A stretch of 64,000 nt of DNA from Spinellus fusiger (taxonomy: Eukaryota; Mucoromycota; Mucoromycetes; Mucorales; Phycomycetaceae), in contig JALLLS010000028.1 in assembly GCA_025094145.1 (NCBI GenBank), positions 1-64,000 on the forward strand, read 5' to 3'. The notes under the pieces are model-generated. The model searched no databases and had not been told where the DNA came from. It saw nothing but the letters and a program-made list of their open reading frames with translations. A program made the translations under genes and the position numbers. Shown here one piece after another: positions 1,215-35,300 of the stretch (positions are counted from its first letter, which is position 1; each line of letters opens with the position of its first letter).

Positions 1215-1762
1215 TGTTCCAACTTCAATCCAAAGATTCTCTATGAATAAGTCAACACAAGTAGTGTACTGTGACATTCAGAATACTCTATGAAAGCTTG
1301 AGTGTACACAAGTAACATAGTACATCTCTGTATCATCTCACTGATTGGTTGTAACTACAAATCACCTTCTAAAGCTCAGTGTACTATCAGACACTTAACA
1401 AGAGCTATCTTCATTAATAATCCTAACAGAACAATATTGACCTATCAGAGTCAATTGAGTAAAGACTCATAATAATTAATGGTTTCAATAATGGAGTGCT
1501 TATCCCAGGAACCAACCATAAGGTCAAAGAAAGTGAATTCTACCATAAGGTAGAATGTCCCCACCAACCATTTAGTTGTAATTGTGAAGCAGCCATAAGG
1601 TTGACTATCATGACTACCATAAGGTAGAATAGATTATCCTACCATAAGGTAGAAGCCACTGAAGAATAAGCACCCACCAAAAGTATAAATAGTGAACCTT
1701 TCTTTACTCAATAAAAATTATCTTTGTTCAGTCTTGTTAATCTACCTGTCCAAACAATCTCA
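1215..1762 (+). repeat. LTR-like unit, copy A
   Basis: The unit starts at TGTTCCAAC and ends CAATCTCA. It contains a TATAAATA box at about 1682 and AATAAA at about 1711, the order expected for U3 and R of an LTR. It also contains five copies of CCATAAGG (1516, 1543, 1593, 1617, 1642), several of them in short hairpins with CTACC/GGTAG arms. Other copies are at 2378-2930 (-), 7382-7934 (-) and 12655-13207 (+). Copy A lacks the first five bases seen in the other copies. The left flank is LINE sequence and the right flank is the inner part of the inverted repeat. Confidence 0.75.
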
Positions 1763-2068
1763 GTTGGTTTTGTAATAAAAAAAGTATCAAAAAAGATAGG
1801 ATTAAAAAAATATTAAATTCAAAAGGGAATTAATCAGACTCAAAACAAGATGCTTTTATTAAAACAATTTTGACATGTCTATTTAGTATAAATAGACAAG
1901 TGGCTGTGTACTGAATATGATCTATTACTGTTTTAGGATGCTTGTCAAATAATGGCCTGTTCAGTAGACTTTAATATGCATTGTCTTAACTATGAATTAT
2001 GTTATAAAAAGGAGACAACTTAATAATTGGTCTGTGACTGCTACTGTTGTCTTCATGATTACAACAGG
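1215..2068 (+). repeat. Left long terminal inverted repeat of the Rep-PolB element
   Basis: This 854 bp stretch matches the reverse complement of 7076-7934 over its whole length with only scattered differences. Its outer 548 bp (1215-1762) is the LTR-like unit found four times in the window. Its inner 306 bp (1763-2068) is found only here and in the right arm. The arm ends inside the Rep reading frame, so the first 14 codons of Rep are part of the repeat. Confidence 0.85.
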
Positions 2069-2380
2069 AGAAACCAAAAGGGTTTTGTTACTTATTTTTT
2101 ACCAGTAGATATTGATGAGAGGAAAAAGTTCAATGAAAAAATAAATCTTAAAAATATCTTAAACTTTTATAAATGTGGTTCTACCAAAAATGCAGATATG
2201 TATAAACCAAATGAAACACATTTAAAAGGGTTCAAGGGTTTTAGAGACAACTTGAAAGAATTTATGGCAGTAAAGGAGTACCACACAAACAAAGATGGTT
2301 TAAAAGATATGGATAGGCCACACTACCATATCTACTTTAACTGCTATAATCATGTGATTATTCAGACAAGTAGAAAGTAA
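2027..2380 (+). pseudogene. HUH-type Rep endonuclease fragment
   Basis: The frame of 117 codons ends in an HUH-like signature, DRPHYHIYF, in which two histidines flank a bulky residue, preceded by EYHTNKDG. This is the metal-binding motif of rolling-circle replication initiators. Upstream residues (FVTYFLPVD) could hold the first Rep motif. The frame is cut at about 2378 by an inverted LTR-like unit and appears to resume after 2930. The catalytic tyrosine motif cannot be placed with certainty. Homology to CRESS-virus or parvovirus-like Reps is inferred from the HUH motif plus the SF3 helicase downstream. Confidence 0.5.
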
Positions 2381-2930
2381 CAAGACTGAACAAAGATAAT
2401 TTTTATTAAGTGAAGAGTGGTTCATTATTTATACTTTTTGTGGGTGCTTATCCTTCAGTGGCATTCTACCTTTTGGTAGTTAATGATTAGTCCATGGCAT
2501 AGCTTATTGATAGATGCAACCATATGGTTGGTGTAGATAATTTATCCTATGGTAGTTTACATAGGTGTAGCTTTATGGTTGGTGTAGGTGTTCTACCTAA
2601 TGGTAGACTACATGTTGGAGCCTTATGGTTGGTTCATTGAATAAGCACACCATTATAGAGCCATCTATTATGTCTTCACTTTTAATTGCCTTTGATAGGT
2701 CTTATTTAATCCACTAAGGATTTATAGATGAAGGCAGCTCATTAAGTGTCCAATAATAATTTGAGCTTAGAAGGTTGATTTGTAGTTACAACCAATCAGT
2801 GAGATGATACAGAGATGTACTATGGTACTTGTGTGCACTCAAGCTTTCATAGATTATTCTGAATGTCACAGTACACTACTTGTGTTGACTTATTCATAGA
2901 GAATCTTTGGATTGAAGTTGGAACACAACA
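2378..2930 (-). repeat. LTR-like unit, copy B (inverted, most diverged)
   Basis: This is the reverse complement of the LTR-like unit, from ...CACAACA at 2930 back to the polyadenylation region near 2378. It is more diverged than the other three copies, with altered hairpin motifs (ACCATATGGTTGG-type variants), and so is probably the oldest insertion. It lies inside the Rep gene and separates the HUH motif from the rest of Rep. Confidence 0.75.
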
Positions 2931-3307
2931 AATCAAGTAAAATTGTCCAATAAAGATTGTTTTGACATTGAAGGATTCTATCCAAATATTAAAAAGGTGA
3001 ATTATAAAAAAAGTCTCATTGAATGTATTATAAAAACATTGAATCAAGATTATAGTAACAAAGATAATTGTATCCTCTATAATTTTGATCCCAACTATGT
3101 TTTAAAATCAATGAAAGACAAGAAAAAGCAGATTGGATTTGAACTAATATATAATGGTATGGATATTGTAAATTTTATTGAAAATATCCTGGTACAATCT
3201 ATGATATCCACCAACTTGAATACGGTTTAAATTATTACAATCATGCAAAATGAAAGAAAGAAATAAAGAAGAACAAGAAAGATCTAAAAAAGATAACACT
3301 GTTTAAT
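2931..3307 (+). pseudogene. Rep middle region, between HUH domain and helicase
   Basis: The frame 2943-3230 gives a lysine- and asparagine-rich protein of 95 codons starting ...DCFDIEGFYPNIKK. Near 3185 the coding sense shifts to another frame, which continues through one stop at about 3253 directly into the Walker A region of the helicase. I recognise no family-specific motif. The position between an HUH motif and an SF3 helicase matches the linker of Rep proteins. Confidence 0.45.
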
Positions 3308-3960
3308 TTGGACTTTGAATTTACAAATGAATATAAAGAACCCCAAGTATTTATTTGTGGCCCTAGTAATACTGGTAAAACAAATGGTGTTATTAAAGTA
3401 TTAGATAAAGTTGGCCATAATGGCTTTGAAATACCATCTGCAAATAATTCTTGGAATGATTATGATGAGGATATTATAGATTACCTCTATTATAATTAAT
3501 TCAAAGGGCAAATTCCAGTAACCTTCTTGAATAAAATCCTCCAAGGACCAACTGAAAAACAAAGGCTGAATATACCAAACCAATATAAAACAAATTATAT
3601 CAAAAAGAAATTGCCAATATTTCTTCTATCAAATTATTTTCCCTGTGAATGTTATGATACTAACATGGAGAGCAAAAATAGAATTAAAGTGCTTCTAAAT
3701 TGTTTGATAGTTGTTTGGGTAAACATGAAACACAAAGCCTTTGTAGTTCATGCACCAGAATCAGTAAAACATAAATACAAAGTTTATGATTATTTCTGGG
3801 GAGAAAGTGCTATGGAACTAGATAAAGATTTCTTTAAAAAAGATGAAGAAAATTATCATGATAATAATGATAATAATTCAGATAATGAAGAAAACTCTGA
3901 TGACAATAATAATAGTGGAAAAAATGTTACCAATGATAAGAAAGAGATAACATATAAAGA
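3308..3960 (+). pseudogene. Superfamily 3 helicase domain of Rep
   Basis: The sequence shows Walker A GPSNTGKT, a Walker B-like hydrophobic stretch (DIIDYLYYN followed by FKG after a stop at 3497), and the SF3 motif C as PIFLLSNYF, with a basic residue pair further on as in an arginine finger. This order and spacing is that of SF3 helicases of small DNA virus and plasmid Reps. The Walker B acidic residue is lost to the stop codon TAA. Downstream is a very acidic, asparagine-rich linker (3840-3925, D/E/N runs) that leads without a stop into the polymerase region. Confidence 0.65.
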
Positions 3961-5700
3961 TCCAACCGTTACATCGACACTAGATAGTGTTGATATAAGC
4001 AAGAAATGGATGAACAAAAAAATCCACAAAGAAAAAGAGTTGAACAGAAAAATATTCTCTTTTGATTCAATTTATTTTCAGAACTGTAAGGAAAATGTAG
4101 TAGTATTTGATTTTGAAAACATTTTCAATGGTCTAAATATTTGTGAAAGTAATTTTTATAGACTCAACTATTGGTATGATATCATTTGAATACTACAAAA
4201 ACAATTTATTAATAAGAAAAAAATGTTGGTCTGTTAAAAAAAATTTAAACAAAAAATTCCTAAACAATAAAAGAGGAATAACAAGATGGTTTGAAGGGGA
4301 TAATGATAAAAAGGATATGTTCAATGCATTTATAAACTTTCTAGCATCAATAAAAAATTGTTTTCTTGTAGAATTTAATAGCTTGATGTCAAAACAATTT
4401 GCCTCAAAAGATAGAAAAATCTGCAAACCATTTGATATAACCTGTCTAATTCTGAAATTAGGAATAGACCTAAATATTAGAGGTATGTCTGATAGTGATG
4501 TGGACTTTAAAGGTTATATCAAACTTATTGAAGGCATCTGGCTATTAGATACATGGCATATCCTTTCATTGACAAATGTCCTAAGAAAAGCAGAAAAACT
4601 TTATTTTAAAGATTTCCTAGATGGTTGGAGTGAATTTATTTACTGCAAGGAAAATAATACTTCCCCAAACAAATATACTAAAGAACAAAAAACTTTTCTA
4701 AAAAAAAGCAGAAATATAAAGTATCATATACACAAATTGATATGGAGTTATCTGGTGAAAAAGAAATTTCTTTAGTAGGGTCATATTGTTCCAAAGATAT
4801 AACTCTTACATGAGATCTTTTCAAGAAATGCTTATTCTTCAAAGGTATAAAAATGGTATCTCAGCAATATTACAACAATGAATTTTCAATAATTTATCTA
4901 TTCAGATCAAGTATCTTAAATACATACTTGAAGAAAAAAGAATATAACAATATATATAATATCTATACAACTAATAAAAATTATAAATTTTTAATTGTTG
5001 GTACCAAAGTAATAAATCCTAAACAAGAATTTTATGAAAATGTTGATACAATGGACTTTGCATCTTTGTACCTTTCAATCATTATCAAAAATAATATTTC
5101 ACCTGAAACCTTTATCAAAGTAATTTATAAAAGTAAAATTACAAAAGAAGATCTAGCAAAAGATAGAAAAACATATAATATTTGTGATTGCCATATGAAT
5201 ATAAATATCATTAACACTAATACTAGCAATAGTGACCACAATATAAGAATGATGAAATTTATAGATTTAATTAAAAAAACTAATAGCAATAAATTCTATT
5301 CTTATTTCTACAAATCCAATATAAAATTTGGCATAGTAACAGATCTTTTAATAAACACAATTCAAACTAGATTTAAACTAAAAAATATGGCAAAAAATAC
5401 TAAAAAGGGAAATCCTATTATATACATTTATAAAATCAAACACAATGCTTTAAAAACAAACATGAATGCAACATAAATTATTTGCTGTAAGTTTTAATAA
5501 AATTTATAATCTATTTGTTGCAGGCGCAGTTACTGGAGAAAATAAAAAATATATAGAATAAATGGATAGACATCACTTATTTGCATGGACAGCTGTGGAA
5601 GAAGTGGGATATGATAAAGTTACTAAAAGTATTTACAGTAATGGAATGTTTCAGAAAATAGTATATATAATAGCCAATTGCATATTTTAATAAAAAAAAG
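3961..5700 (+). pseudogene. Family-B DNA polymerase, exonuclease domain and palm motifs A and B
   Basis: The exonuclease starts with VVVFDFEN (DxE of Exo I) at about 4098, in the same open frame as the helicase C-terminus. A shift to a second frame occurs near 4150. That frame carries YCKEN near 4640, resembling Exo III YCxxD with D changed to N. Palm motif A is DFASLYLSIIIKNNISPETF at 5053, matching DxxSLYPS with P changed to L. Motif B is KTNMNAT at about 5455, like KxxxNSxYG, and is cut by TAA at 5473. A GTAAGT...GCAG pair at 5486-5534 could be a 50 nt intron. Coding-like sequence goes on to about 5685. Family assignment is firm; the subfamily is not. Confidence 0.7.
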
Positions 5701-5754
5701 AAGTCAAAACAAAAACCTGGATTCCTAAAGTAGGGTAGTTTATACCCAAGGTCA

Positions 5755-6045
5755 AGTTAAGTTGTTGGTTCTTGCTCTGGTTTCTATTTGTTCTCTTGTT
5801 TGTTTGTTTTGGTTGTCCATGTATAGAAGAAGTCTCTGTTACCTATTCTTTTGTTCCTCCCCAGATCTGCTCCCAGAGTGTCCCCTTCAGACCACTACAA
5901 CCATAGTCCCTGCAGCAATAAGAACTAAGTTCCCCCTACACACCACACCAGATCTCACCCAACCCCTATATATACAAGAGCAGCTAGCCTTTCTCTGAGA
6001 TCCTGCAAGTCTTAAAGAACAAACCCCTTGCCCAAATATATAAAT
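5755..6045. repeat. GC-richer insertion inside the polymerase gene
   Basis: About 290 bp with a clearly higher C and G content than the flanking AT-rich polymerase sequence. It begins near TGTTGGTTC (5762) and has a TATATATA box at about 5969. It lies between palm motifs B and C of the polymerase. Size, TG start and TATA box suggest a solo LTR of another retroelement. I could not find a clean target duplication or its partner in this window. Confidence 0.4.
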
Positions 6046-6565
6046 ATTTAATTTTTGTAGAAGAATACATGCTAAATAAAGAAATTTCAGTGTTATATAG
6101 TGACAGATAATATTTTCTACATAAATCCAAACAAAGAAAATAACATTCTCCAAGAAGTAAATACACTTTTAAAAGATACATTTGGTGAATATAATGGAAA
6201 ATAATATCTTACAATGAATTGAGAGAAAATTATAGATAAAATCTATTTCCCAGACAAAAAAAAACTATATAATTCTTAAAAATAATAATCTTTACATCAA
6301 AGGATTACAAACATCTTTAATTTCATCAAGTCTAAAAGATATATTATACAACCTGTTTAAAGACATATTATTAATAACAGATAAAACAAAGAATAATGAT
6401 ATATTATTTCAATGTTATTCAAAAGTTTATAGTATGAATTTGAAAAATGTACAATTCTGTAAGGAGAACAATAAGGACTATACAAAGAAAGATCTAATGA
6501 AACTAGTAGAACTTTATGATCAAAACTATATCAATGAGAATAATATTCTACCATTCTATTATTGA
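6046..6565 (+). pseudogene. Family-B DNA polymerase, palm motif C and thumb remnant
   Basis: In one frame, 6098 onward reads VTDNIFYINPNKENNILQEV, which matches the YxDTDSxF motif C of family-B polymerases with the first aspartate lost and S changed to N. Further on, near 6290, KGLQTSLISSSLKDILYN resembles the thumb region KGxxxxRxxxxxxxK. Multiple stops are present. It is the continuation of the polymerase at 3961-5700 after the inserted piece. Confidence 0.55.
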
Positions 6566-7075
6566 AAATAGTGGGCTTGACCACCTATTCTTGTAGAACC
6601 TATTATAGTTATTCCACATATGTAAAATGTATATTAGCATAAATAGTGAGAAGAAATACACCCTTTGCATTTTTGAGAAATATAATCTTATTATTCCAAA
6701 CAGTACACTTTTGCTTAAGGATTTCAAACACTATAAAAGTTTTGGGTTAGAAAAAGACACTAATAAATATTGTAACTCTGGACAATAGTGACAATACAAG
6801 AATTGTAAATTCAATGAATATCATGCATAAACTATTAGGATCTCTGGGTTATAGGAAACTATTAGACAATATTAAAAAATTGTTTACAACTTGGAAAAAA
6901 AATAAAAAGAAACATTAAAAAGAGTTAAATATAAATAACTTTATTGAAGGTTTAGATGTCTAAACATTAATGAATAATAGCTGGAATGATATCATAAGTG
7001 GTTAAAGGTTGAATAATTTAAAGTACTTAGTACAAATGGTTTATGTTATTTTCATTGCTCAAATAAAATAACCAA
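6566..7075. other. AT-rich tail of the Rep-PolB element, no gene recognised
   Basis: The stretch is AT-rich like the polymerase region, with short broken frames in several phases (for example around 6680-6780) that may be the end of the polymerase or a small extra gene. I see no motif. It ends at the right inverted repeat. Confidence 0.5.
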
Positions 7076-7934
7076 CCTGTTGTAATCATGAAGACAACAG
7101 TAGCAGTCACAGACCAATTATTAAGTTGTCTCCTTTTTATAACATAATTCATAGTTAAGACAATGCATATTAAAGTCTACTGAACAGGCCATTATTTGAC
7201 AAGCATCCTAAAACAGTAATAGATCATATTCAGTACACAGCCACTTGTCTATTTATACTAAATAGACATGTCAAAATTGTTTTAATAAAAGCATCTTGTT
7301 TTGAGTCTGATTAATTCCCTTTTGAATTTAATATTTTTTTAATCCTATCTTTTTTGATACTTTTTTTATTACAAAACCAACTGAGATTGTTTGGACAGGT
7401 AGATTAACAAGACTGAACAAAGATAATTTTTATTGAGTAAAGAAAGGTTCACTATTTATACTTTTGGTGGGTGCTTATTCTTCAGTGGCTTCTACCTTAT
7501 GGTAGGATAATCTATTCTACCTTATGGTAGTCATGATAGTCAACCTTATGGCTGCTTCACAATTACAACTAAATGGTTGGTGGGGACATTCTACCTTATG
7601 GTAGAATTCACTTTCTTTGACCTTATGGTTGGTTCCTGGGATAAGCACTCCATTATTGAAACCATTAATTATTATGAGTCTTTACTCAATTGACTCTGAT
7701 AGGTCAATATTGTTCTGTTAGGATTATTAATGAAGATAGCTCTTGTTAAGTGTCTGATAGTACACTGAGCTTTAGAAGGTGATTTGTAGTTACAACCAAT
7801 CAGTGAGATGATACAGAGATGTACTATGTTACTTGTGTACACTCAAGCTTTCATAGAGTATTCTGAATGTCACAGTACACTACTTGTGTTGACTTATTCA
7901 TAGAGAATCTTTGAATTGAAGTTGGAACACAACA
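7076..7934 (-). repeat. Right long terminal inverted repeat; includes LTR-like unit copy C (7382-7934)
   Basis: Reverse-complement partner of 1215-2068. Inner part 7076-7381 mirrors 1763-2068, and outer part 7382-7934 is a complete LTR-like unit ending GAACACAACA. Its CCTTATGG motifs and hairpins (about 7494-7630) mirror those of the left arm. The near-identity of the two arms contrasts with the decayed interior, which suggests that the arms exchange sequence by gene conversion or that the right arm arose late. Confidence 0.85.
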
Positions 7935-8646: not shown

Positions 8647-9495
8647 ATGTTAACAGAAGCCCTAACCACAGCATTCAAGGCCTTAATAGAAAACCAGACC
8701 AAGCCTATCAATATTAGTCCACCAGAATGTTACTATGGAGAACAAAATGCACCACAAGTAGAAGGATGGGTAAAGGCTATAGAGAAGTACACCAACTTCT
8801 ACAAACATAATGATCTCAAGAAGATAGCTGTTACCACTAATCTCCTAAGAGATAGAGCCAGGCTTTGATGGCAGTATGTTGAGGCCACAGGACCAACTAT
8901 TGATACATGGAGCACTTTTGTTGCTCTCTTGTATAAAGAGTTCAGACCAATCAACTCCACAATAATGGCCAGAGACCATATTGCCAGTCTCCAACAGAGA
9001 AGGACTGTGGAAGAATATGTCAATGCATTTAGGAATGCCATGTTGGATGTACCCAATATGACAAACACCAAAGCCTTAGACAGCTTTTTCAGGGGGTTAT
9101 GCACCAATGTGAGAACCAATGTTATGATCCATGGGCTGCAGCTACTCAGGGAGGCCATGAGGATGGCCTTAGCTCACAAGAATGAAAGTCAGACTGACCA
9201 GAGAAACATGTTTCCTTCACAAGGTTTCCAACCTTTTTGCCCATCCACCCAGCTAACTGCATACTGCCCTAGACCAATGGAGTACTCTGAGGCCACCCCA
9301 ATGGACCTGGATATTATCCAACAAGGAAGCCATCCATATCAGCCTAGGAGTCTCCCACCAAGAACAAGAACATTTAACTCCAAATCTCAGGATCACTCAG
9401 GGGTAGTCTGTTTTTGGTGTAAGAAGACAAGACACATGAAGCATAACTGCCAAGCAAGACTGAATGCCATCAAGAAGCTAGATAAAGACTACTAA
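8647..9495 (+). pseudogene. gypsy gag
   Basis: Two frames in the same phase (8647-8868 and 8929-9495) are separated by a TGA at 8866 between RARL and WQYVEA, where an arginine codon CGA is likely. The protein is a retrotransposon Gag capsid (IASLQQRRTVEEYVNAFRN and similar). Its C-terminus has one zinc knuckle, CFWCKKTRHMKHNC (CX2CX4HX4C) at about 9410-9455. Gag ends with TAA at 9493, and the pol frame is -1 relative to it from 9486 across an A7 run. Confidence 0.75.
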
Positions 9496-10172: not shown

Positions 10173-11570
10173 ATGATATTGGCCAAACAAGCAAACAAGC
10201 TCATATGCAAGGAAAAGGCCAAATACTATCTACTCCACCTGGAAGAGATAGCCCAGACAACACCTATAGACCCTTTTGCAAAAGACTTGGTTAATGACTT
10301 TCAAGACGTATTCCAAAAAGGGCTCCCTGGTATACCGCCCAAAAGAGACATACACCATGTAATTGAGACAGGAAATGCCAACCCTATCAGTAGGCCACCA
10401 TACAAGATGAGCTCTAAAGAACTGGAGGAACTAAGGAAACAACTCAATGAATTACTGGAGTTAGGCCTCATTTGACCAAGCACTTCACCTTGGGGAGCTC
10501 CAATCATGTTTGTAAAGAAGAAGGATGGAACCATGCATATGTGTATAGATTACAGAGCATTCAACAAAGTAACTATCCATAATAACCATCCACTACCACG
10601 TATTGATGAATGCCTGGAGCATCTAAAAGGATCAAGGCACTTTACCAGTTTGGACTTGAAGAGTGGCTACCATCAGGTACAAATCCAACCAAGAGACGTG
10701 CCCAAGACAGCCTTCAATACATGATATGGACAATATGAGTTCTTGGTACTGCCTTTTGGTCTTACTAATGCACCACCTACCTTTCAACACCTAATGAACA
10801 AGGTCCTTGGTGATTGCCTAGACAAGTTTGCATTAGTATATCTGTACAACATCCTAATCTTCAGCAAGACACAAGCAGAACACAAGATCCATGTACACTA
10901 TGTACTAGAATGCCTGAGAAAAGCCAAACTGATAGCCAACCTTAAGAAATGTGAATTTAACAAGAAACAGCTCACGTTCTTGGGATTCCAGGTACTCCAA
11001 GAAGGCATACTCCCCTCACCAGACAAGATCAAAGTAATCAAGGAATGGAAACCTCCCACCAATGTGCAAGAGGTATGCCAATTTATTGGCCTTGCACAAT
11101 ACTATTAACACTTTATCCCAAAGTTTGTAAGCATTGTAGCACCTATTACTGATCTTACACTAGGTGTAGGGCCAAAAAAGAGACCTGTGGTGTGGACCAA
11201 AGAATGTCAGAGTAGTTTCAAACTACTAAAAGAAAAGCTAAGCACTGTACCCATACTCCAAGCACCAGACATGAAAAAACCTTTCTGCATAGAAACAGAT
11301 GCATCTGATTATGGGGTAGGAGCAGTACTATTGCAGGAAGATAAAGAAAACCAGTGGAAACCTCTTGCCTTTGAATCCAAGAAGCTCTCCAAGGCCAAAC
11401 AATCCTACCCTGCTCAGGAAAGGGAACTGCTAGGAATTATGCATGCACTGAGAACCTGGCACTGTGTGATCAAAGGGCAAGCATACAAGGTGTATACAGA
11501 CCACTTACCTTTATAATATTTCTGGAGCCAAGTAAAACCTACACCTCAACTTGTTTGATGGATAGCAGAG
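10173..11570 (+). pseudogene. gypsy reverse transcriptase and RNase H
   Basis: Typical Ty3/gypsy RT motifs occur in order: [70 protein letters not shown] and LGFQV. The catalytic box reads VYLYNIL instead of VYLDDIL, so both metal-binding aspartates are lost. RNase H follows with ETDASDYGVGAVLLQ at about 11296. In-frame stops are at 10474 (LI*PS), 10723 (NT*YG), 11106 (YY*HF) and about 11514 and 11557. Several sit where an arginine CGA is normal. Confidence 0.85.
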
Positions 11571-12654
11571 ATGGAGTTATACAACCCCAAGATTGTCTAC
11601 AAGCCTGACAAAGAGAACAATGTCCCTGATGTGCTCTCCCAACTGGAACAAGGAGAATCCAAAGAAAGTAAACCCATGGAACCCAAGTATCTTTACAGCC
11701 TTGCATTAACTGATCCATCTGACTGGCCACAATACTACCTCACACCCAAAGAAGAGTGGCCTGAAGAATACAAGGAACAGCTGAGCAAAGAGAAACACCA
11801 TTTCTTTATCACTGAGGACACTATCTATAGAAAGACAACCTCTAATGAAACTGAAACCAAAATCCAATATGCACCTTATGTGTGGCAAGCAGACTTGGTG
11901 AACAACTTCCACAAAGCATTTAGACACACTGGAGAATGAACAATCCACAGTCTACTTAGCAAACAATGGTGGTGGCCAGACATGCAAAAACAGATACAAG
12001 AATGGATCAAACAGTGCCCACAATGCCAAATAGCAGCCAATACAGAAAAGAATGTCCACCATGCTCCTATGACTCAACTGGATATACCTCCTCCATTTTC
12101 CAGATGGCACCTTGACTTCATAGGCAAACTCCCAACAACATCAAATGGAAACCAATGGATCCTTGTTGCAGTAGACTACATAACTAATTGGCCAATTGCA
12201 AGAGCTGTTCCCACAGCAACAGGAGAAGCCATAGCCCTGTTCTTATATGAACAGATTGTTATGCAATTTGGGTGCCCTGCAGAGATCCTGACAGACAGAG
12301 GATCAAACTTCATGTCACAAGTCCTAGTACACTACACCAAGAAGATCCAACTGAAATACAAACTCACATCAGCCTTCTACCTATGGACCAATGGAAAATG
12401 TGAACGTCTCAATGGGATACTGAAACAGATGCTATGTAAGTATATCAATGGAGACATTCACTGCTGGGATGAGTACTTGGATATGGCACTATGGGCCTGC
12501 AGGATCAGAAAACACAACACAACAGGGTTTAGTCCATTCTACCTAACATATGGACAAGAACCTAGGCTGCCTGGAGATGTGTTCAAACCATTCTTAGACC
12601 ATCCAGGAGGATCAGAAACAACTAACACCAGCAACACAACAGCCCTGAGAAGAC
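11571..12654 (+). pseudogene. gypsy integrase, C-terminally truncated
   Basis: The HHCC zinc-binding region is visible (FHKAFRHTG then, after a stop at about 11937, CPQCQ at about 12016). The catalytic core follows with WHLDFIGKLP, LTDRGSNF and a glutamate in ERLNGILKQM, giving the DDE triad. The frame ends in unrelated repeat sequence from 12655, losing the C-terminal DNA-binding part. Confidence 0.8.
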
Positions 12655-13207
12655 TGTTGTGTTCCAACTTCAATTCAAAGATTCTCTATGAATAAGTCAA
12701 CACAAGTAGTGTACTGTGACATTCAGAATACTCTATGAAAGCTTGAGTGCACACAAGTAACATAGTACATCTCTGTATCATCTCACTGATTGGTTGTAAC
12801 TACAAATCACCTTCTAAAGCTCAGTGTACTATCAGACACTTAACAAGAGCTATCTTCATTAATAATCCTAACAGAACAATATTGACCTATCAGAGTCAAT
12901 TGAGTAAAGACTCATAATAATTAATGATTTCAATAATGGAGTGCTTATCCCAGGAACCAACCATAAGGTCAAAGAAAGTGAATTCTACCATAAGGTAGAA
13001 TGTCCCCACCAACCATTTAGTTGTAATTGTGAAGCAGCCATAAGGTTGACTATCATGACTACCATAAGGTAGAATAGATTATCCTACCATAAGGTAGAAG
13101 CCACTGAAGAATAAGCACCCACCAAAAGTATAAATAGTGAACCTTTCTTTACTCAATAAAAATTATCTTTGTTCAGTCTTGTTAATCTGCCTGTCCAAAC
13201 AATCTCA
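12655..13207 (+). repeat. LTR-like unit, copy D (solo)
   Basis: A complete 553 bp copy of the LTR-like unit, from TGTTGTGTTCC to CAATCTCA, with TATAAATA, AATAAA and the CCATAAGG hairpin cluster. It is almost identical to copies A and C. Its left flank is gypsy integrase and its right flank a DDE transposase, and the flanking five bases (AAGAC and CTGCC) are not duplicated, so it probably formed by recombination between copies. Confidence 0.8.
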
Positions 13208-16236: not shown

Positions 16237-19200
16237 TTAGAGTAGCCTCTATGAATTGCAGAGGGCTGGTGAAAACTGGCCACTCCAACACATGCTCCTT
16301 ATACATCAGATACCTATGCTCCATGAAACTCAACATCCTTGCCCTACAAGAAACCCACACCTCCACCTTCTCTATGCAACATACCTCTGACCAACAATTC
16401 TGCTCCTCCTCCTCACTATGGTCACCTCACTGTGGCCTAGTCTCATTATCCTCTGACATCACATTCACTAACCCTCTCTTTAGCCTCTGTGGCCACTGCA
16501 TTACCACTACAGTGGTGCATGCCAACAAGCTCTTCCTTCCTTTTTGCATCTGCATGATATATGCTCCAGCTACTTGCAAAGATTGCTATGCTTTCCTTCC
16601 TTCCCTCCTCACCAACAGATGCCTTCTTCCCTCATCCCCTGCCAACTTTATCTTGTTGGGTGATTTCAATTACTTGTACACCTCCACCACCTCTCCTTCA
16701 AGACAAGCACCAACTCCATGGTTATGGTATATATAGTCTTTCTTTAATGATTCTGTTACTGCCGAGGGAGATAAACCCCTTCCAACCTTTCACTGTTCCT
16801 TTTCTTCATCCACCATTGACTACATCTTCACCACTCCCAACATCTTCTCTTCTTGTTCTTCCACCTCTGTCACATATATCAACCAGCTTTGGTCTGATCA
16901 TTGCTTGGTATCTGCATCCTTCCTTTTCCCTGCTGCTCATGCCCTTGGTAAAGGCCTCTGGCATGTCAATCCTTGTCTTGCTCATAACTCTTCTTTTACC
17001 ACCAAACTCAACATGCTCATTACTAACTACTTCCTAACCCTATCACCAATGGATTCTCCACAGATCCAATGGGATAACCTCATCCACAAATTCTGCCACT
17101 TTCCTTCCCAGAACTTCCAGCTGCCAGTCATCAAACAAATGCTGCAGTCTGTCCAGAAAGAATGGGTAGAGAACCAGGCTCTCAGAGCTGGTCAACACTG
17201 GAGAGAGCAGGGAGAAACCTCTGCTGGGTATTTGAAGCATACCATCACCACCTGCCAATCCCATAAGAATATGCCCAGCCTTTGCCACCCTACAACCAAC
17301 ACCCTATGCACAGATCCCAAGGATATGACAGAAGCAGCAGCAGCATTCTATGACCAACTTTATGCTCCTGACCCTGTTTCTGATTTGGCCATCCACAACC
17401 TTCTATACCATATGCCCCCCAACCTCACTCTTCATCCATCCTTGTTTTCTCTTCTTTCTGCTTGTTTTTCACTAGCTGAGATCTGTTTGGCTGCCTCTTG
17501 TGCTCCAGCTACCAGTAATCCTGGCCCTGATGGCTTGCCTTACAAGATTTTGGTTCTCATCATCACCCACCCCTCCTGCTCCTTCCTGGTGGATAGAGTA
17601 TATAATCAGGCACTTCTCTTGGGGATTTTCCCTGCCTTGTGGCAAGAGACTTGTCTCACTCTGCTGCCAAAGAAAGGAGACCTTTCTGACTTGAAGAACT
17701 GGCACCCCATTGCACTCATTAACACTGACACCAAGGTCTTCACTAGGTTGATCAGTGGCTGTATGATCCCAGCTGTAGGTACAATTGTCTCACCATACCA
17801 AACTGGTTTTGTTTGTGGATGGTTCATTGTGGATAATGGTCTTCTTACCAAGGCCATTATGGAGCAGGCCTGTATCCAGAACTCTCCAGCCATAGGACTC
17901 TTGTTGGACCAGGAGAAGGCTTATGACAGGGTTCACCCTGATTACCTATGCCAAGTCCTCTGTCACTTTTGTTTTCCCCCTCTACTCATTACCTGCATCC
18001 ATAACCTCTTTTTTGCCACTAATATTAGAGTGAATGTCAATGGACATTTATCTTGACATGTCAAGCAATCTAGGGGTTTGCGCCAAGGAGATCCTCTCTC
18101 ACCAGTCCTCTTCAATCTTGCTTTTGAACCTCTTCTATGCAGACTACTGCATGATGACCAGTTCATTGGCTTCTCACACCCACTTTCATTAACTCATCCA
18201 ACCACTGCTCCTTCTCCTCCACCACCACCACCTGTCAAATACCTTGTCTATGCTGACAACCTCCTTGTCTTCCTTCCAGATCTGCCTCAACTCCACCATC
18301 TCAACACCCACCTTGACACCTATGCCACTGCCTCCAATGCCAGAATCAATATGCACAAAACAGAAGCCTTTTCTTTGTCTGGATCACCACAACCAACATA
18401 GACTACAGTGCTTCAACAATGCAATATAACTTCATGGCATGATTGCTACTCTCCTTCCCCTCTCTGATACTTGGGTTTCCCTCTCTACAACTCCTCCAAA
18501 TAGAAACAATCCTTCCTTGACACTCTCCTTTCCTCCATTCACTCTTTCTCCAACATTCATCTTTCTTGCCTCTCTCCATCCGTGGAAGGGAACTGTCCTC
18601 AACACCCTCATTCTCTCCAAGTTATGGCATGTTCTCTATGTCATTTCTGTCCCTCTCACCTTCCTCACCCAAATTTGCTCTTTGATGTCAAAATTCCTCC
18701 AGCATAGGATGTTTCCTCTGGTCAAGCTTGCCACCATGTGTGTCCCTCTCTGCAAGGTGGTCTAGGTATCCTGGATCCTGGCCTTCAGCAAGCAGCCCTG
18801 CAGCTTTGGTGGCTAGCACCTATGATGTCCTCTTCCTTGCCATCCAGTTTGGTTCCTCCTTGGTGTCTTTCTCTCTTCAGCAAGCAGCCCCCAACACCAA
18901 CCTCACCTCATCCTCCTATGCCCCAACCTTTGACCCACCACCTATTGCCATATGGACAGCGCCTTCTACAATATCTTTGCTGCCATTGACACTATGCCCC
19001 ACAGCTTTCTTTCTGCCATTCCAGATATTCCAACATGTCTCACCCTTCTGCTGTCCTTTACATGCACCCCAGTCCCATCCTCCACCCTCTTCCCTTGTTC
19101 ATGGTGCCACCTTCTGGTATCCAATGCCTTTATCACTGATACAGCATCAGGGTTACTGCACAGACGCTCCGACAGAGATACTAAGATTGCCATACATCAT

Positions 19201-32312: not shown

Positions 32313-35300
32313 ATTTGTGTATTGCGTCTTTGGTCTTTCCTTTTTTCATTGGGAGAGACTGTTTATTTATTGATTGATGTGTCCTCTTGGTGGGGCTGTT
32401 GGTCTAGCGATGAAAGCAACAGAGAGTGAGAGAGAAGAGAGAAATGACACTAGCTTCATCCTTGGGGAGGAGGTGGTCATCTTAGCTTAGAAGGGGGGGT
32501 GGCTCACAGATCACTTTGGAATATAAATTAGACATGCTGCTTCATCTCACAGTTAGGAAAGAAAAGGCAGTCGTTGGTGAAGGAGAAGCGTCTGTCTATC
32601 CACCTGCCACAATGACTCACATAAGAACCTTTTTATAGGGAGATGTGTCTGTAGGTAGAGTATTACACAAAGATAGTGTACAGAATATCACACTATAGCT
32701 GCCAAGAATAAGTCAGAGCTATCATACCAAGAATAAGTCACTGTTAATTTGTGAATAACGAAGTAGACAACTCAGACCAACTCATTGAATGTTAATGTTG
32801 TAGATAGATAAGTGGATAAATAGATAAATAAGTGGATAAATAGATAAATAAGTGGATAAATAGATAGTTAAATAGATAAATAGATAGATAAATAGATAGA
32901 TAAATAGTTAAATAGTTAAATAGATAGTTAAATAGATAGACAAATAGTTAAATAGATAAATAAATAGTTAAATAGTTAGCTAAAAAGTGCTCATCTCTTC
33001 AACTTGCATAATTGGCAGTAACATGGTCATTTGTAGACTGATGTCTTATTGTCCATTGAACAATGGTGGTTTGCTCTCTTTCCTATTGGACTCCAAGAAC
33101 ACACCCTAGCCACTCAAGGAATAGCCCCTCTGTCCCACTCTGTTGGTGACAAAGCCAAGCAAACGATCCTCTGTTAAACCTATTTTCTCCTCAAATACAA
33201 ATGTGGAGAAATTCAGCCAAACAATAAGAAAAGAGACTAGAAAAGAAAGACAGCCCAATCAACAGTCAAAAGAGATAATAATCATCTCCCTCTCTTCCCC
33301 TTATATGAATATAAGATTCCCTTCTCCAGTGACAGACAGAAAACATAACCAATGTCAGCCAATAAAAGTAAAACTCTAATACAGCCTCAACCTTGAGTTT
33401 GTCCTGATATGCATTTGGGCGTAAAAAGTGTGGCGTTCATAGTAACACCCCCTTGATTCTCCACTCATTGCTAGTGAAACAAGTCATTTTAATCAGTTCA
33501 AATAGATGCATTTTTAATATACAAGACCACTGGTCGTATTTACCAATGACTGGGAAAGATACGATGTCCCACCCCATTTATATTGATATACAGATACATA
33601 TACAAATATTCATCTATTCATATCACTATTTATTCATCTTAATCCTCAGTTCCTTTGTGTTGCCTGTGAGTGTGTTTTACTCAAGCCCAGTGTCAGCTCA
33701 TCCACAATAATAAGTGGGAGATGTAATGGATACCTATCAAATGTATTTCTTCGAGAGACTATTCTATTTTTGTTCATACCAATGAATCTCTTATCTAGCT
33801 GTATGTGTTGATCAATGATGAATAGTAAGCAATCCAATCTTATATTACCTTTCTTATGATCTCGGGACAATGGAATGAAGACCGAAGACGGAAATAACAT
33901 AAATAATATATTAAAGATATAAATAACATAAGATGGAATGAAATTGAATAAGATTAAACCCTTTTTTGGTGGTAGAAATCTATATTCATATGGATTTGTA
34001 GTAATGCCATACTCACAGAGAAAGTTACCTCTTTCGCTTTCATGACAAGTATATTATTTGATGTCATCCCACTCAACTGTCTTTTGTGAGTTTAAGTTTA
34101 TAAATATACATTTTTAATACTATTCTTATAATAGTAGTCTATCTGTATACTTATTCTTCACTGCAGAGAACTATTTCACACATTCCATCAGAGAAACAAG
34201 AGAAAGTACACTTTGATTCAATAGAAGAAGAAGAAAAGAATAAATTAGACCCTCTCTCTCTTTGTTTCTTTTTCTTTTCTTGACCTTTGTTGTTGCTTAT
34301 TAGAGTCTTTCTTTTATTGTCTTGGTGTAAAGATAAAACAGAGTATATTCCAAATACAGATAATAATACTCGGTAGTTATTTTTGCCTTTTTGTTTCTCT
34401 TTCTTATTGCTACCTCTATAGAACACCAAACCCATAGAGTGTATCTGAAGAAGAGTATGATTGAGAGTGTTTTGTTTATTTATGGTTCTGATGTTCTCCC
34501 CTTTCTTTTTTCTTTCTTTCTTTCTTTTATTCTTTTCTTGAAGAAGAGCATCTTACATTTACTGTCATGATGTTATTTAACTATTAATTTTTAATATTTG
34601 AAAGGTGTACAAACTAAATAACACGAGCCGAGTTATTTTCAGGTACGCTCCGATGGAAGGAAAAGGATAGGAAAAGAAAAACAAGACCTCTATTTGTCTT
34701 ATTTTTATTTTATTTTATTTTTCTTCTTTTTATTTTTATTTTATTTTCTAATAGTAATAATAGTAATGGTAGTAGTAGTAATAATAATAACAATACTAAT
34801 AATAATAACAATAACAACACTAATAACAACAACAACACTAATAAACTAAAGGAGACAAAATATGTATATCTTACTGTGTTTCGGTGAATTCCTACCTGTT
34901 TGTCTCCATCTCATCAATAAGGTGACAGTTCTAGAAATTAAAATTAATTGTCAATGTTTCTGATGCATACATAGGAGTTACATATAATAAGCTAAAAAGA
35001 TTAAAGTTCAGGTTCATTCAAAGGGGGGCAGTGAGTGGTAGGAATGAAGTGATTTATTTATTTATTCATTATTCATTATGCACTCATTATTCATTATTGA
35101 TCGTAGTAGTGGTAGTGGTATTATTTGTTGCTATGGCTACTACTTTATGTTGCTATGGCTACTACTTTATGTTGCTATGATGACTACACTACGGCTACTT
35201 TATGTTATTGGTTACAATAGCCGCTAGTAGAGTCATGTGGTGGGTGCAGATGTGGCGGGGTTCTCGAGGTCCTATTCTCTTGTTCTTCTTTAGTCATTAA

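Follow-up and report, generated by a model that had tools for sequence, protein, structure and literature searches.

A decayed single-copy gene with a family-B DNA polymerase palm and putative HUH and SF3 domains in the genome of Spinellus fusiger

What kind of gene lies broken in the AT-rich interval between two almost perfect inverted repeats near the start of a Spinellus fusiger contig, and are these repeats its own termini? The window analyzed here comprises positions 1 to 64,000 of the 409,762-base contig JALLLS010000028.1 (C119), one of the 197 contigs of the 38-Mb assembly GCA_025094145.1. We read the locus, with a probability of roughly 0.7, as a dead, single-copy relic of the replicase gene of a mobile element or virus, fixed in the fungal nuclear genome, with putative HUH, superfamily 3 (SF3) helicase and family-B DNA polymerase (PolB) domains in this order; the same figure covers, jointly with this reading, the view that the polymerase is probably not of the protein-primed type. 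The locus is real and unusual; the gene, however, is dead and present once, and the collections searched yielded no relative.

The palm piece of the polymerase (4814-5473, plus strand), a single-copy segment containing motif A (DFASLY) and the beginning of motif B, matched PF00136 with an E value of 7.8e-13 and 48.5 bits against a cut-off of 23 (45.8 bits in the genome scan). It also matched the NCBIfam PolB models (E values from 3.5e-7 to 8e-6), DNA polymerases of phage families in PHROG (5.6e-8 and 8.6e-8), and family-B polymerases in PDB (from 6.3e-5). Judged by these comparisons, it is certainly a family-B polymerase palm. The same piece gave no match to the protein-primed PolB model PF03175 at E values up to 1, and neither did a genome scan with that model, which is weak evidence alone, its control having matched nowhere as well. 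The PF00136 genome scan additionally detected the presumed host PolB genes on contigs C13, C110 and C121.

The palm belongs to a series of pieces laid out on the plus strand, with the motifs PHYHIYF at 2318, GPSNTGKT at 3359, PIFLLSN at 3614, DFASLYLSII at 5054, and TDNIFYI at 6103 spanning 2318-6123. The series begins with a single-copy open frame (2069-2352) that carries the HUH-like, and thus Rep-like, motif RPHYHIYF and is broken by a repeat, R'. The Rep-like piece continues at 2936-3227 with a YxxK-like stretch, YSNK, which may contribute the tyrosine, and is followed by a possible short GT-AG intron of 32 nucleotides (nt) at 3225-3256, or a plain frame change. The putative SF3 Walker A piece (ICGPSNTGKTN; 3254-3496) is closed by an in-frame stop, and the start of its Walker A motif lies 85 residues from that of SF3 motif C (PIFLLSN), located in the next, single-copy frame (3500-4186). 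A further GT-AG intron (31 nt) is possible at 4131-4161, again with a plain frame change as the other option, and a 212-codon frame, 4137-4772, without a PDB match or a plausible Pfam match, occupies the place where the PolB exonuclease domain is expected. Downstream of the palm, the motif C piece with TDNIFYI (6097-6201) was recognized by its motif, without a profile match, and a C-terminal-like piece (6236-6562; weak unrelated Pfam match, E value of 0.09) includes the KKNYIIL region, which we take to be a PolB C-terminal motif.

When the region was simulated 5000 times with an order-1 model, neither the full ordered motif set nor the SF3 pair of motifs A and C was recovered (0/5000 for each), with single patterns arising in 1.5% (PHuHu), 0.4% (D[FY]xSLY) and 28% (TD[NSTA]u) of the simulations; all these patterns were defined post hoc, with the motifs already known. 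Within the real window, PHuHu is also present at 16355 and 26918, and the Walker A and polymerase motif A patterns are unique to this locus.

Motif, order and spacing suggest the HUH and SF3 identities of the upstream pieces, and several results weigh against these assignments and the reading built on them. Searches of PDB with the HUH, Walker A, SF3/exonuclease and exonuclease pieces yielded no match below an E value of 0.3. In Pfam, PHROG and NCBIfam, the same pieces produced matches that stayed below significance (E values no better than 0.01); the families concerned were mixed or unrelated, with some of the P-loop type and SF3 not among them. The HUH family PF23343 was matched (E value of 0.045) by a piece containing repeat sequence, and we discarded this match as support for HUH, since the clean piece matches nothing in Pfam. 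Searches of a set of 5.8 billion proteins with the palm and SF3/exonuclease pieces (E values up to 10 in part) yielded no homologue, and no relative was found in IMG/VR by protein and motif-pattern scans of limited sensitivity. Moreover, the helicase-polymerase fusion is known from one broken copy, in which a lost stop between two genes would look alike. Of the 9 IMG/VR pattern matches, the frames in L085, L087, L091 and L092 were judged to belong to unrelated phage-type loci, and the match in L068 falls outside every listed frame of 80 amino acids or more; by tblastn, L085-L092 gave short matches with E values of 0.037 or worse, which we read as chance. The predicted structure models, with predicted local distance difference test (pLDDT) scores of 31 and 41 (41 for the HUH piece), were unusable. 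Proof of the putative HUH and SF3 assignments would take a relative. A preliminary description of the locus, made from the sequence alone, had listed the five motifs in one direction, all of which were located as given above, and had proposed HUH, SF3 and PolB content; the profile scans of the pieces matched the PolB family through PF00136 and gave no significant match for the Rep (HUH) and SF3 frames, which are recognized by motif and order.

The helicase and the polymerase look like one protein, because SF3 motif C, an acidic linker and the PolB ExoI-like VVVFDFEN follow one another in a single frame (3500-4186) of 229 stop-free codons. For comparison, the longest frame in 1000 simulated sequences of the same dinucleotide composition, read in six frames, was 173 codons. 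Nested repeats are abundant at the locus, and pieces of different elements could have been juxtaposed by chance through nested insertions; such an origin is highly unlikely, given that motif C and ExoI share one frame, that, by coordinates, the Rep frame keeps its phase from one side of R' to the other (2352 to 2936), and that the pieces have a common strand, the expected order and equally low GC content. The last property is pronounced: the GC content of the interior, calculated over four nonrepeat stretches, is 25.0%, compared to 41.1% for 14001-64000, in line with the very AT-rich interior noted in the preliminary description, and is below that of every other 3.7-kb stretch tested in 8000-64000 (minimum, 35.1%). 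Another AT-rich kilobase of the window, 34001-35000 (28.5% GC), did not match the Rep-PolB pieces significantly.

The stretch 5487-5523 (37 nt, GTAAGT...TTGCAG), located at polymerase motif B, was taken as a likely spliceosomal intron because the spacing of motif B fits once it is removed. A mitochondrial genetic code is not favored: the pieces repeatedly use TGG for tryptophan, and TAA occurs beside TGA among the in-frame stops.

The gene copy is a dead fossil, because it carries in-frame stops, several frame changes and three inserted repeats, R', X and Y. R', a solo long terminal repeat (LTR)-like sequence on the minus strand, occupies 2353-2930 in the Rep-like gene part, between copies of AATCA at 2348-2352 and 2931-2935. 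X, a dispersed solo-LTR-like repeat, interrupts the palm at 5552-6042 and has AATA on both sides, so that two of the three insertions are flanked by exact target-site duplications; Y, a dispersed repeat recognized by its genome matches, lies near the polymerase C-terminus, at about 6557-6739. Of the 21 copies of X that were mapped at both ends, 20, the in-gene copy included, have identical 4-bp flanks, and at least 40 further matches to X, at 39 places, are among the best 40 of 191 candidates in the genome scan. Y has at least 39 matches elsewhere (best 40 of 91 candidates). By contrast with these repeats, the HUH, SF3/exonuclease, exonuclease and palm pieces each match themselves alone in the 38-Mb assembly, with no second copy, and when the DNA of 2931-7075 was compared to the rest of the genome, matches were confined to X and Y. 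The X family (L034-L062), with TGTA...TACA ends, constitutes a solo-LTR family at no fewer than 39 places besides the window.

The inverted arms, 1210-2068 and 7076-7934, are 859 nt long and 5007 nt apart, and differ at 3 positions (1213, 1214 and 1230). The preliminary description rightly took them for near-identical inverted repeats, with slightly different limits (1215-2068 for the left arm), and regarded them as the 855-bp termini of the element itself, a view at odds with their composition. As seen from matches to dispersed repeats, the left arm consists of repeat R (1210-1762), a 48-nt spacer (1763-1810), and repeat S (1811-2066), followed by GG, and the right arm contains the same units in inverted order: S at 7078-7333, the spacer at 7334-7381, and R at 7382-7934. 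R measures 553 nt in the arms, starts with TGT, ends with CTCA, and is solo-LTR-like; R and X alike display the TG...CA ends and target-site duplication characteristic of LTRs. The genome scan with the whole arm returned at least 73 matches, mostly to R, among the best 40 of 583 candidates. In a sample of 30 R copies, namely those with both ends found among the best-scoring loci, an exact 5-bp flank duplication is present in 7, including R', and absent from 23, including those of both arms. S, a second dispersed repeat of 256 nt, has exact 5-bp flanks in 3 of the 8 two-ended copies, the arm copies being without them.

Because R and S are also found across the genome without this gene, the arms were rejected as element-specific terminal repeats, and an element bounded by its own terminal inverted repeats is very improbable. 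In its favor are the near-identity of the arms and the 48-nt spacer, for which a genome-wide search allowing up to 3 mismatches found the two arms and no other place; against it, the arm limits are those of R and S, with GG added, the outer flanks differ (CCCTA and CTATA), and the outermost arm bases correspond to two different natural R variants, TGTCA and TGTTG. The arms thus fit poorly as Rep-PolB termini, although a trace of such an end might conceivably survive in the unique spacer. Judging from sequence, their near-identity is consistent with later homogenization, by gene conversion or by duplication, or with one path having been used twice in the assembly. Inverted R pairs as transposon ends were also considered for 4 pairs (in the window and on C120, C79 and C177) and dismissed, as by eye the outer flanks of each pair share no duplication.

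R copies vary in length from 505 to 658 nt, with the variation centered on a block (about 1485-1660) of CCATAAGG/CCTTATGG-type short repeats. They often occur in close inverted pairs separated by about 0.7-2 kb, as in L063, L064, L065, L066 and C177:103263-105780, and the flanks of the L066 pair (on C130) look exchanged, as would result from LTR-mediated inversion.

HUH-SF3 Reps are generally regarded as relying on a polymerase of the host, and few DNA viruses are known from fungi. On the best reading, the relic derives from a replicase with its own PolB and replication would have been of the rolling-circle type. We infer this mode of replication, as well as the introns and a viral or transposon origin. 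The parent would have encoded a single long protein, or a fusion of helicase and polymerase at the least, in which the HUH domain would nick the origin and keep the 5' end, the SF3 domain would unwind the DNA, and the fused PolB would extend the free 3' end, which would make the replicon less dependent on the polymerase of its host than an ordinary Rep element is. LTR-type repeats of the host have inserted in the gene (R', X and Y) and beside it (R and S), and the arms would not be the termini of the replicon but flanking repeat copies that were homogenized later, or a product of the assembly. That the relic represents a lineage of fungal rolling-circle replicons with a single, intron-bearing HUH-SF3-PolB replicase of non-protein-primed type is a tentative proposal, held at less than even odds. 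If true, the fusion of a Rep with a PolB of its own would link single-stranded DNA-type replicons with PolB-bearing viruses in one protein and would supply a concrete query for intact relatives. It also illustrates that long, almost perfect inverted repeats flanking a gene are not necessarily its termini. We found no description of an HUH-SF3-PolB fusion in the open-licence full-text literature, which is weak evidence of absence.

The evidence does not make the locus a bidnavirus, a Polinton or a linear plasmid, for which both the PolB type and the terminal repeats fail. Fungal mitochondrial and cytoplasmic linear plasmids are AT-rich and combine PolB with inverted repeats, but their PolB is protein-primed, they lack HUH-SF3, and their repeats are true termini. 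The adintovirus-type polymerase of bidnaviruses is likewise protein-primed, and the comparison with bidnaviruses and Polintons drawn in the preliminary description is weakened by a palm that matches PF00136 and has no PF03175 match. As for Polintons, the integrase-type rve match in the window (11982-12692) belongs to a Gypsy-type element, and the arms are built of the repeats R and S. To our knowledge, rolling-circle Rep elements of the circular Rep-encoding single-stranded (CRESS) type have no DNA polymerase of their own. Such elements and geminivirus-like fungal transposons bring an HUH and helicase Rep into fungal genomes, as the putative Rep of the locus would, and the term "DNA polymerase" has 0 occurrences in the text of the source (PMC3198968). 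Bidnaviridae would share the combination of a parvovirus-like SF3 helicase with a family-B polymerase, whereas the present locus has a PF00136 palm, an apparent fusion and no capsid match, and the bidnavirus polymerase is of the adintovirus type, according to excerpts of a preprint (PMC11071296). The same excerpts name HelPol, a polymerase remotely like cellular PolBc, in parvovirus-like sequences, which would be similar to the locus in joining a parvovirus-type replicase with a PolBc-like DNA polymerase; we liken them by description, and they are reported there as viruses with virion proteins, with one fused frame not described in those excerpts (PMC11071296). In Polinton-like viruses of Oxyrrhis marina, elements of about 25 kb, a superfamily 1 (SF1) helicase is fused to a protein-primed PolB, as stated in the part of the report used here (PMC12721341). 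A helicase N-terminal to PolB in one protein and decayed endogenous copies would be common to both systems, but SF1 and protein-primed PolB contrast with the SF3-like, putative HUH and PF00136 palm combination here (PMC12721341, same part).

Within the replicase-relic reading, the locus could be a fragment of an endogenized parvovirus/bidnavirus-like or HelPol-like virus, with the capsid genes lost or beyond the preserved part. This origin is possible but falls short of an even chance: the palm is PF00136-like, and the preprint excerpts report, besides the parvovirus-like HelPol sequences, integrated bidna-class sequences beside fungal retroelements in a Lactarius dataset (PMC11071296), whereas the IMG/VR scans made yielded no relative and Pfam scans of pieces within 2069-6562 matched no capsid-like family, in a copy that is broken and possibly incomplete. 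In a broken copy without located ends, neither the capsid nor the integrase genes that the preliminary description saw as apparently missing can be called absent. A transposon-type origin of the replicase relic is similarly conceivable without being the probable one. The likely intron at 5487-5523 suits a nuclear gene, replication domains alone are seen, and PMC3198968 reports transposable elements of two such kinds, geminivirus-like in fungi and parvovirus-like in lower animals; on the other side stand the single copy and the lack of any target-site duplication or terminal repeats assignable to a replicase element.

The host genome is likely fungal, because genes of the same window include one with an STE match (PF02200, E value of 1.3e-54) and a second that matches Fungal_trans weakly, short of the Pfam cut-off, which agrees with the residence in a fungal genome proposed in the preliminary description. 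Beyond the right arm, the Gypsy-type element comprises Pfam matches to gag (8929-9492), reverse transcriptase (10506-10721) and the rve domain mentioned above. An R repeat at 12651-13207, 99% identical to the arms and without a matching 5-bp flank, lies at the 3' part of this element. On the other side, a long frame at 52-1098, which ends near the left arm and has no Pfam match, presumably resembles a non-LTR retrotransposon, and the right R copy in L063 is abutted by a frame whose start resembles that of the 52-1098 frame.

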